Below, in pieces: positions 13,286-56,800 of a stretch of 64,000 nt of DNA (position 1 is the stretch's first letter; each line of letters begins with the position of its first letter). Source of the stretch: Protonemura montana (taxonomy: Eukaryota; Arthropoda; Insecta; Plecoptera; Nemouridae). The notes under the pieces were generated by a model. That model saw only the letters and a list, made by a program, of their open reading frames with translations. It searched no databases and had not been told where the DNA came from. Where the stretch lies: contig OX387603.1 in assembly GCA_947568835.1 (NCBI GenBank), forward strand, positions 17,012,651 through 17,076,650, in the 5' to 3' direction. The position numbers and the translations under genes were made by a program.

Positions 13286-13501
13286 GAAACACTACTACCC
13301 TCTTAAAAATTCATTTCCAAACGGGGAATCGAACCCCGATCTCCAGCTTTCGCGGGTGTGCATCCAACCAATTGAGCATCTTGGACTTAATTGGTTAGAT
13401 TGTTAGTCCAATTAGTTACGGCAACACACGCAAAAAATGAAGTTTGAGGTTCAAGTCCCCATTTGGACATACATTTTTGAAAGGGTGTAGCCTAATGTTC
13501 C
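13286..13501. mobile_element. tRNA-like inverted-repeat element A (double core)
   Basis: The outer ends are inverted repeats: the left arm GAAACACTACTACCCTCTT and the right arm, reversed, GGAACATTAGGCTACACCC, both then leading to AAAAAT and CCAAA(C/T)GGGGA. Inside, a minus-strand tRNA-like sequence (B box GGTTCGATTCC, T stem CGGGG/CCCCG) at about 13314-13386 faces a shorter plus-strand one ending at about 13470. Flanking duplications are unclear. Related elements are at 28593 and 56380. Confidence 0.7.
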
Positions 13502-13782
13502 TAATAATAAACTACCTAATAAACAATTTACAGAGGTTCATATGAAACTTGAAAATTATCGTTAGAGCAAATCTGTTTGCACGGCTTTATTCTCACATGA
13601 TGCTGAGTCACTAATTTAATACTCAAAAAATTATTCTGGTGGAAATTTGTGGGAAACTCGGAAAATCTATCTTGATTGGACAAAAAGCGTCAATGAACCT
13701 GAATTCCACGTAAATTAGTGCGTGGCGCCAAATTAAGTCCAGCGAGTCGCTTCTACTTGTTGTCGGTAGCTATACTCATTAC

Positions 13783-14600
13783 TAGAGATAGGATAGTAAT
13801 GCAAATGCATATTCTTCAATAATGCTAGTATCCCATGCAAACTCGTGGACGTATCCGTTTCATGACATTGAGATTGCAATGACATCATGATGATATTGCA
13901 TATTTTGCATATTTCAGCTTTTAGTGCATATTTGGGCTGATACTGCATAAAATTGCATATTTCAGCTTTTTGGCAGTTTTATAGCGCATGTTTCAGGAGA
14001 TGTTGCATGCTTTACGCATAAATGTATTAATTTCAAATTTTATTCTAGAAACTAGAAAACACAAGTAATTCTCTTCTGAGAATCGCAGAATCGCAACTTA
14101 TGAGAATCGGGTTTTTCCTAGAACTTTTCAAGCTAGCAAGTTGTTAAGGGGTATAGGTAGGGTGAGGAGGACTTTACCCTCAGCCAGTCACAACAAACAC
14201 AACCTACCTAATTATAGGTGTTGTTACCTGCTCAGGAGTGTGACCAAGGGGCAGGTGGAGAGAAGGTGGTGGACTTTAAACTTAAGAAAAGGGACCTAAT
14301 GTACACAGGTGTTTCATTAGCTCAGCTGCTCAGTTCGCTAATTGTGCAGTAGCTAGTGGGTAAGCCAATTTATTTATTTTAACCTTGGCGCCTATTAACC
14401 CATCTCTAAGTGTGAAGTTGAAACAATGGGTGAAAGAGCACAACTATTTAGCAAGTAATGGAATGGCACTGTGAAGCTAATATGCGGTACCTATACTATG
14501 CGATACCACATATTTGGCCATTTTTGCTGCATATGTCAGTTTTTGATAGCGCATATTTTGCATATTCTGGCTTTGATACTGCATTACTATCCTATCGCTA
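13783..14600. mobile_element. Non-autonomous hAT element, 818 bp, with 8-bp TSD
   Basis: The terminal inverted repeats differ at one base: TAGAGATAGGATAGTAATGC on the left and TAGCGATAGGATAGTAATGC, reversed, on the right. The target duplication CTCATTAC is perfect at 13775-13782 and 14601-14608. Many subterminal GCATATTT motifs lie near both ends, as expected for transposase binding sites. There is no transposase ORF. Confidence 0.88.
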
Positions 14601-53000: not shown

Positions 53001-53889
53001 TTAAGCATATAAATTTCATCGATTCATATGTATTCTGTACATATATATATAAATTTGTGTTTTATCCAGTGGTGTAGTACTGGGAAACTAAATGAGTAAA
53101 CTGAGATTTTCTGGTAACCTGCAAAGGGGTGAGGGGGGAGAATTTGGGGAAAAAACATTTTGTTGGATTGTGCATTTTGACTACACTCCCAAAACTTCTC
53201 ACAAGCTCTGATATCTTTCGGAAGCCCATCGTATTATTTACTTTTCTATGATTTAATCGTGGTCGCTTCAACCATTGACGGAGACAGAATTTATTGTAAA
53301 ACATCATCAAATTATCAAAATTTGCAAATCAATATCATAAACAGAATGTTCCCTCCATATGAAAATATTATGATGCTCAAGGTTCTGGGCAACAAACAAA
53401 AAGCCACAAAATGCATATTTTGAAAACGTAAACGTTTGCATTTATCAGCATATTTCTTTCATATACAAGTGGGTATACGCTGAATTAAAAAAAGGGTGAA
53501 TATACGCTGCACACGTAAGACTACACCACTGGTTATATAATTATTTAAACATGTATGCTACCTGGTAAATAATTTTATCACACCGCCATCAGTTTGGTAC
53601 GTTGCACACTTCCTCATTCCCTCTTCCCCACAATCCCTTTTGTACGCAATTGGTTTGCAAACCACTCCTACACTAACAAACTTAACAGGCCCATTCAATT
53701 TCCTTGCGGTATTTGATCGCAACCGAAGGAAATTAAACAGAGCAAACTCTGAGCAGGTAGACAGACTCATCAAAAACAAACAACCACCATACGACCATCG
53801 AAAGCGAGAAACAACCTATAAACCACTGTCGTTCAATGCCCCAGCATCCCCAAACGTTCGGCAGCAGACTAGGGCTTGGCAAGCGGGGG
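50020..53889. other. Intergenic between clip protease and RNF111
   Basis: An ATTAAA at about 50149 may be the polyadenylation signal of the clip protease. The rest is AT-rich without recognisable genes; the short ORFs at 50863-51132 and 51434-51724 have no recognised motif. The left-hand side of RNF111 presumably includes its 3' UTR. Confidence 0.4.
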
Positions 53890-56800
53890 TCAGGTAGGCG
53901 TCGCAGCCTCCTTGTTGTGGTGCGTTTCTATGTCCACGCGGCAGATCGGGCAGCGCTTGTTGCTGCTCAGCCACTGGTCCACACACTCGACGTGGAACAG
54001 GTGCATGCATGGAAGACGTCTGCGGGAACGCAAAGCATAAGTCAGGAGATTGCGTGATACATTTTAAGAGATGTGCGCTTACGGAATTGGAAATTGAGTG
54101 CTGGCGAATCATTAAGTTTAACTTTTGGGCTCGGCTTAGAATAGTACAGGCTAAAAATCTGGAAAATCTGTTATGACATTCAATCCACCAAAAGGTTGAG
54201 GTTTATTTTAAATGATAGTCAGCCAATTGTAAGTATTCCAAATTACTTTTAAGACTTTAAGGAATTATGCATATTAATATGCAGCTTATCATGTAGGAGA
54301 GTTCCAACTACAACTTTTCAATATTATCTACTATGCACGCTACTACTACCTATAAACTCTGTAAAAATGTAATAGAGTGTATTAGGCAAGCTACCTCAGC
54401 TTAACCTCGAATCTAATATCAAACTTGTTACTGTAGATGTCGTTAAAACATTCTCACTCCCACCTACCTCACATCCTCTCCGCGCTCGAACTCCGACAAA
54501 CAAATGGTGCACTTGTCGAGGTGATCGTCGTGCGGGCGTCGTGGGGCCGGTGGGAACTTATGCGGGAAGGTGCAACGCTCGATCGTCTCTTGCGTCGCGC
54601 CGCGGTTCATCTGCGCCAGCCGCCGCTGCTCCACGACACGCATGTAGTCCTCAAGTCGTGCAGACATGTGGCGCGCGAGGAACGGGAAAGGGATCAGCTC
54701 CGCGGGCAGCACTGGTGGGAAGACGAGCTCTTGCGGGCGCGGGCTTCCACCGCCCTGAAAACAAAATGGTTCATGTTGATAAAATGAAATCAGAAAGGAT
54801 TTTAAATTTCAATGATATGATACGGTTCACTGGATGCAAAGGTGTGTAAGAAAAAAGGAAAGCTTTTGTATGTATGACTTGATTTGCTGTTTCTATTCAT
54901 CATGTTCACCATCAAAACTCCAGTTTCTCTTATGAGTTGTTGTTGCACTAATATGGTATTTTAACTGGTGGTTCTTATAATCTAGAATTATTTTACTAGT
55001 TTGCTGTTTTGGGTTGTAATAGAGAAAATACTAAGAGGTTTTTACAGTGTTTTTTTTTTCTTCCTATATTGCATTATTTCATTACATATGTTTCTACCTG
55101 TTTTAAACAGAATTCAAAACAAAAAAAATGTCAATAAGAAAATAGGTCGTGCTAAAAACTTGTAATTATGGCAGTGACCTAGAGAAGACGCTAAACACTT
55201 GCTACGTTCCCCGCATGCGGCATATGAGCTTAATTGATGAAGCACACCTGCAGTCGACTACGTACCAGGTTTGGTGCCGCTATGCTGATGTGAACGTGGT
55301 GCATTCGATGGCCGGGTTGATGGTAGTGATAAAGGTGGTGGTGAACATGTTGATGCGAGCTTTCCCTGCAACAAAAACAATGTCGTTAGTCGATGGACAC
55401 CAGCCACAGACACATTATGAATCGGCGTTGCTGAGAGGCTGGACGTGAGGTGCTGGTTAGCCAGATTTATCGTCACCAAAAGATTCCAAGTTGCTGAAAT
55501 ATTTGAAGAAATAAGTGACAATGTAACAAAGCATTACATTGCCCGAAAAGTTGTCACCGCATACAAGATTTGAGAGGCGCATTTGAGTTTGAAAAATTGC
55601 TTGCTGCCCAATAGCAAAACCAATAAAAACTGAGTTATGAAAATTTGGATGCAAATCGGTCACTCACGCTGGAATGCTGGTCAGACTCATGGCTGACTGA
55701 CTGTTAAAATGGCCAGTTATTAACCATGAACTCTCTTCTTCTGTCACCTCAGTAAGTAGGGCTTCCTTCTTTTCATTTCGAAAATTCATTAACCAGCATT
55801 CTGGGAACATCTTAAACGTGGTAACAAACTCACATGGGCAGACCCTGCTGTCGTCGCATCTCAGCCCCGATGTCCCTGGAGAGCCCACTGGGTGCAACTC
55901 GCGTGTCGGGCTCTTCAAGCCAGTCGGTCCAGTCGACGCGAGGCGGTGGCGGCGGCGGCGGCTGGGGCACGTGCTGGTTGGCCCATGGAGCCCGCCGGAT
56001 CCAGCCTGAGTCGGCCGTGCGCTGCACCGGAGCCCAGGACGGTCCGACATCAGGCGGGGGCGTTCCGCCGAGCATCGTGTTGGCTTGCTGCAGCGGCGTC
56101 ACGCATGGAGGCTGGGAAGTGCGGCGACGCTGGATCTCCTGAGGGCAAGCGGGATCTTATGACTTAAACCGTTTGGTCAACTTCGGCTCTGAATTTTCGA
56201 ACGTAACAGTTCTCTAATTTCGATACGTTGTAGGCCCAGTAAATGTTTCACTTCGAACATTTTGTTATAGTAAAATACTAAACAGTTCATTCCAGTGGTA
56301 TTGATTTTGGGGGAAAAATAGAGCTTTTAAAGTAACTGATGAAAATCAGTGATTTTAACCTTTTTTTTTAAATCATTATGAACACTACTACCGTCTCAAA
56401 AATATGCCCAAACGGGGACTCGAACCCTAATCTCCACCTATCGCGGGTGTTGCTCTAACCTATTGAGCTACTTGGACACTTGGTTTTTGAGACGATTTTA
56501 GTGTATTTGATGAGAATGACGGATCTCCAAGGAGAAGAACAAGATTTCAAATGATATTAACTGATGATTTACAATGATGAAATTGTGGATGATTGGGGAA
56601 TTGTGGGGAATTAAGAAAGATCAAAATAACAGAGATAGATCCCAGATGAATGGAGCTATCTTTGTTACTTCTTAGCAAAAACAATTAAATTATCTTCAAG
56701 ATAATAGCAAACAATCAAAATCAAGACCAAGAATTTCTTGCATGAACTACCCCCACCTACCTGCATACGCTGCTGCGAGTGCCACAGCCTTTCGTGCAGT

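Follow-up and report, generated by a model that had tools for sequence, protein, structure and literature searches.

Three related sequences dispersed through the window (the whole 64-kb stretch of DNA that was analysed) share an unusual hybrid anatomy, in which inverted ends resembling those of a DNA transposon close tightly around a tRNA-like core, all three copies being worn. We interpret them as probably belonging to a family of short non-autonomous MITE-like DNA transposons enclosing a Pol III unit that derives from a tRNA and comprises an A box, a B box and a T-run terminator. SINE-like Pol III units usually spread through LINE machinery, and a tRNA-derived unit set flush between DNA-transposon ends would, if this reading is true, constitute a second dispersal route for Pol III promoters, TFIIIC sites and tRNA look-alikes; such a family would also be a source of false tRNA calls. 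The first copy, e1 (~13277-13510), is a head-to-head two-core palindrome, and e2 (~28584-28723) and e3 (~56371-56515) have a single core each; the initial annotation had bounded them at 13286-13501, 28593-28715 and 56380-56506, respectively. The copies are short (~140-234 bp) and without coding capacity, the sole open frame of at least 90 aa that overlaps any of them (28599-28886) entering e2 from its flank.

The three copies are one homologous family dispersed at three places. Under strict scoring, alignments covering arms and core matched e1 with e3 at 80.7% over 109 bp (E 2.9e-24), the right core of e1 with e3 at 73% over 100 bp (E 1e-10), e1 with e2 at 71.6% over 81 bp (E 5.6e-8) and e2 with e3 at 70% over 90 bp (E 5.2e-7). 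With identities of 70-81% and E-values from 5e-7 to 3e-24 this homology is far above chance, and the three-element family first proposed therefore stands, each of the places holding the sequence described for it. The possibility raised with that proposal, that the arms are part of longer unrelated repeats, is unsupported: no cross-matches were found among the 1-kb flanks (strict scoring; 20 bases adjoining each end excluded), and the one alignment that ran on past an arm, for ~40 bases between the right core of e1 and e3, did so under permissive scoring and showed no extension under stricter scoring. A profile built from the four cores recovered these and, in addition, the left arm of e2 (E 4e-8); nothing else in the 64-kb window, where the copy number is three, passed its inclusion threshold, the right arm of e3 falling below it (4.2 bits, E 0.88). 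Because of their divergence, the family members are probably old and inactive. Exact matching of the arm and core patterns to viral and prokaryotic contigs returned no matches and e3 had none in a plasmid collection, results of little weight as these are non-eukaryotic DNA.

Each copy ends in inverted arms of ~35-45 bp. Those of e1 lie at 13277-13310 (plus strand; outer TTATTATAA plus GAAACACTACTACCCTCTTAAAAAT) and 13470-13510 (minus strand; TTTTT adjoining the core), those of e2 at 28584-28621 (plus strand; 5' side of the core) and 28688-28723 (minus strand; TTTTTT adjoining the core), and those of e3 at 56371-56403 (plus strand; 3' side of the core, with a T5 run on the minus strand) and 56478-56515 (minus strand; 5' side of the core), the last being the most diverged arm. 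Self-alignment, pattern, arm identity and strict alignment all indicate that the terminal inverted repeats are common to all copies, the right arm of e3 being weak in the profile. An arm pattern derived from these same arms and allowing up to three mismatches was found in four of the six and nowhere else in the window (expected 0.00), with no match to the right arms of e1 and e3. As ungapped inverted arms, those of e2 (43 nt, 81%) come second by length among the window's 29 pairs and those of e3 (30 nt, 77%) rank eighth, which is unexceptional alone; the arms of e1, which need a gap, are absent from the 25 pairs listed of the 29 and pair in self-alignment and in the fold. The family claim is carried by likeness between copies and not by the pairing of the e3 arms alone.

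The arms are present where first annotated, but likeness runs further out than the ends then given: all six ends are alike for ~9 bases outward of that boundary (outward consensus TAATAATAA). The column-majority letter occupies 44 of the 54 positions in the first nine outward columns, a likeness not reached once in 5000 draws of six random AT-rich stretches of the window, in a frame that we picked ourselves and, for e3, by eye. Either the inverted repeats are ~9 bases longer than first given or the target is palindromic, and the outward likeness could reflect a palindromic target preference instead of longer ends. Private changes common to both arms of one element occur at two sites in e2, two in e3 and none in e1, and between-element arm pairs have none in common in 9 of 12 cases and one in the other three, a weak sign that the arms of one element may have been kept matched. 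By overall identity the two arms of an element do not emerge as nearest partners (0.76 for the left and right arms of e1 versus 0.79 for the left arms of e1 and e3; 0.67 for the two arms of e3 versus the same 0.79).

With the ends placed alike, the flanks read TAA/TAA at e1, TTA/AAA at e2 and TTA/TGA at e3, these ends being uncertain and the copies diverged, and no single target-duplication length or offset fits all three copies. The longest exact direct repeats within 40 bases outside and 15 bases inside each end measure 6 (e1), 7 (e2) and 7 bases (e3), equally long ones being present at 453, 180 and 159 of 1000 random places; there are no flanking direct repeats beyond chance at the three copies. 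Constant-length target duplications, suggested in the initial annotation as a pointer to mechanism, were not found at these diverged copies with either aligned or free end placement.

Between the arms of e1 lie two cores, 13314-13386 on the minus strand, with its 3' end outward and an intact B box (GGTTCGATTCC), and 13406-13469 on the plus strand, with a B box that by eye has one mismatch; the centre between them (13387-13405) is by eye partly like a D arm. The core of e2 (28622-28687, plus strand) is degraded, having no exact B box and missing the 5' half of the D arm, and that of e3 (56405-56477, minus strand) has an A box recognised by eye and an exact B box. The A and B boxes of a tRNA-related head are accordingly present in e3, partial in the e1 cores and degraded in e2. 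The exact B box GGTTCGANTCC occurs twice in the window, both times inside the family, in e3 and the left core of e1, and with the one-mismatch box of the right core this bears out the earlier observation of intact or near-intact B boxes in two of the three elements. A tRNA-derived origin for the cores is supported, but only that of e3 is recognisable to a tRNA model, with an Rfam score of 40.1 bits (cut-off 29) and the sole ARAGORN call, a tRNA-Ser(cga) at 56404-56478. Of the others, the right core of e1 is sub-threshold (20.4 bits), and the remaining two can be identified only through homology, a B box or what is left of the pairing: e2 has no Rfam tRNA match, and the left core of e1 has no tRNA-family match in the Rfam scan and only short T-arm matches among those listed, which omit two lower-scoring matches of the same clan. 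The odd core feature ACCCGCGA is found in three of the four cores, with ACACGCAA in the remaining one, and these shared oddities argue for one capture of the core.

Five or six T end within 10 bases 3' of all four cores, inside the arm; a T5 in 12 bases has a background frequency of 3.0% in the window, and the four homologous cores are not four independent events. Pol III transcription from internal boxes ends at a T run. Because this stop lies inside the arm, a Pol III transcript would miss the outer arms, and movement at the DNA level, with the arms copied as DNA, is therefore the best reading. A transposase encoded elsewhere in the genome would bind the inverted ends and move the DNA, and a tRNA gene or tRNA-SINE head, captured once into the element, would then have been carried along. 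At their inner ends the arms meet the acceptor stem, which is an inverted repeat in its own right, and a single strand could therefore fold into a tRNA whose stem is much lengthened. Such a flush joint may have arisen when a palindromic MITE captured the tRNA unit at its tip, or when the 3' flank of that unit was duplicated in inverted orientation and one core was lost afterwards, and e1 would be a head-to-head composite or duplication of single-core elements. Arm and core cross-homology amid unrelated 1-kb flanks supports the MITE-like reading; against it are that no target duplication was found, that the arms of one element are not nearest by identity, that one alignment under permissive scoring runs past an arm, and that there are three copies in 64 kb. 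No transposase with the ends of this family was found in the 64-kb window. Of the two options originally offered, a MITE with a captured tRNA gene fits better than a fold-back route: the family, its inverted arms and the tRNA-derived core are supported, and the transposase and the capture are the steps that we infer.

Fold z-scores are -5.5 (e2), -3.3 (e3) and -4.4 (e1) as DNA and -7.0 (e2) and -5.5 (e3) as RNA, and the halves of e1 alone, at -1.35 and -1.32 as RNA, do no better than expected of shuffles. In e2 and e3 the arms pair and continue into the acceptor stem, as had been described for all three elements; e1 as a whole instead folds as one long palindrome. A tRNA with a lengthened stem is well represented only by e3, which forms 36 of 37 pairs of an arms-plus-cloverleaf structure designed on e3 itself. 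In the same columns, counting those with letters on both sides, e2, which lacks the 5' half of the D arm, keeps 26 of 32 pairs, the left core of e1 26 of 36 and the right core 14 of 20. Even for e3 the designed structure (-37.4 kcal/mol) is not the best fold (-48.2), which retains the arms, acceptor stem and D arm and differs in the anticodon and T arms. The two outward-facing cores reported for one copy correspond to the head-to-head organisation of e1, but not to two cloverleafs in its fold.

This palindrome is what speaks for a fold-back origin, possible in itself and on our assessment unlikely, in which the arms would be inverted copies of the 3' flank of the tRNA unit, a head-to-head duplication would give an e1-like palindrome, and spread would occur by hairpin-primed copying or by a transposase adopting the ends. 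Deletion of one core between the similar sequences that form the two acceptor strands would then leave a single core with matching arms. The first copy does form a palindrome of this kind, matching its own complement at 65.6% across 250 aligned positions, and the 5'-side inner arm CTCAAAAA mirrors the 3'-side T run. In the same search, however, the left half of e1 is nearer e3 (79.6%) than its own right half (65.6%), which indicates that e1 is composite or goes back to an old duplication; the four-core quartet splits by 3 sites versus 2 and 1 without gap columns, too few to decide; and transposon ends explain the single-core copies equally well. A bolder version, which we regard as improbable, has a tRNA gene itself turned transposon, its own 3' flank with the terminator being inverted and duplicated into acceptor-extending repeats, the folded tRNA plus arms serving as the unit recognised and moved, and two-core palindromes such as e1 being intermediates. 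Constant ends in genome copies, if confirmed, would make any role of the tRNA fold in movement directly testable.

It is likewise doubtful that the copies are SINEs of tRNA origin mobilised by a LINE, their inverted ends being chance or secondary. Like such SINEs, the family has internal A and B boxes (e3 has both, and scores 40.1 bits as a tRNA) and a cloverleaf-like core, and the same window has another repeat of Pol III origin, headed by 5S-like sequence. Unlike them, the copies have no A-rich, simple-repeat or LINE-like 3' tail, T5-T6 and then the inverted arm following the cores by eye; similar inverted repeats stand at both ends, the T run is inside the element, and no target duplication was found, direct repeats not exceeding chance. 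As anatomy, the initial description of the family as neither a classical tRNA SINE nor an ordinary MITE is fair, neither a tail nor a target duplication having been found.

Ordinary dispersed tRNA genes or pseudogenes, with flanks kept through gene duplication, would account for two programs calling e3 a tRNA, and are nonetheless very improbable given the unrelated 1-kb flanks, the absence of a long variable arm from a sequence called as Ser(cga) and the failure of three of the four cores to reach the curated tRNA score. Even in e3, the one core that does reach it, the anticodon loop CGCGATA (CGCGANA) has by eye a G at the U33 position, which makes it unlikely that this core is a working tRNA gene. 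A family of hairpin small-RNA genes, miRNA- or siRNA-like, hardly deserves credence, the weak miRNA-model matches (best 30.5 bits in e2, and one of 21.8 bits in e1) being about one third or less of the family cut-offs (90-140 bits) and spread over several unrelated families, of which two match on both strands, a pattern that a long inverted repeat may produce; we rejected a miRNA identity for e1 and e2, considering these to be generic hairpin matches.

Returning to the MITE-like reading, the ends of the family begin with GG or a variant, a possible likeness to PIF/Harbinger-type MITEs, whose TWA target would fit the left flanks (TAA, TTA and TTA); the right flanks (TAA, AAA and TGA) fit it in only one of three cases. 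Among known systems, the closest precedent seen in the literature examined is MER6/MER6A, Tc1/mariner MITEs with a V-SINE body; MER6 is 865 bp long, has ends of 24 bp and duplicates TA, and the tRNA-related head is excluded from what it carries of the SINE (PMC6887750). On the MITE-like reading both are MITEs whose inverted ends enclose a SINE-derived sequence, which MER6 spread; the core of the present family differs in being the tRNA part itself, filling most of the space between the arms. The ATon elements of Aedes aegypti are also short TIR elements without a known autonomous partner; they differ in inserting at AT, and "tRNA" is absent from the main text of the paper describing them (PMC3422177). 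A limited search of the open-licence literature, including passages of PMC6887750, PMC3422177, PMC10809549 and PMC10294476, turned up no account of a tRNA core set flush inside inverted ends; such a family may already be known, in subscription papers or Repbase for instance.

The DNA of the window is eukaryotic and its genes look arthropod-like, the latter assignment drawing on a CLIP domain; Pfam matched four of ten reading frames, to CLIP, trypsin, Tudor and glycosyltransferase domains. The second copy is probably intronic, since it lies between two minus-strand open frames (28030-28335 and 28753-29073) that are helicase-like by eye; Pfam gave no match for these stretches. Directly left of e3 is a separate imperfect palindrome of 47 bases (56326-56372; 72%, E 0.003). 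A dispersed repeat headed by 5S rRNA-like sequence occurs at 13175-12744 (minus strand; Rfam 61.2 bits), 46077-46556 (plus strand; 37.4 bits, just under the cut-off of 38), 59391-59178 (minus strand) and 12475-12335 (minus strand). Its first three copies have a common 3' part ending in ...GTGCGTCG(T/C)TAAACACCAC followed by an AT-rich end, and it looks like a 5S-headed SINE. A U1 snRNA-like sequence is found at 11102-11235 (plus strand; 85.4 bits, cut-off 69.5), and an open frame of 275 codons at 7865-8692 (plus strand) resembles by eye a transposase of the hAT kind, with no Pfam match. Finally, an element of ~685 bp at 33419-34103 has 49-nt inverted ends (90%), and its start with TTAAAGGGGCATTTACCC and finish in the mirror of that sequence suggest a TTAA target.
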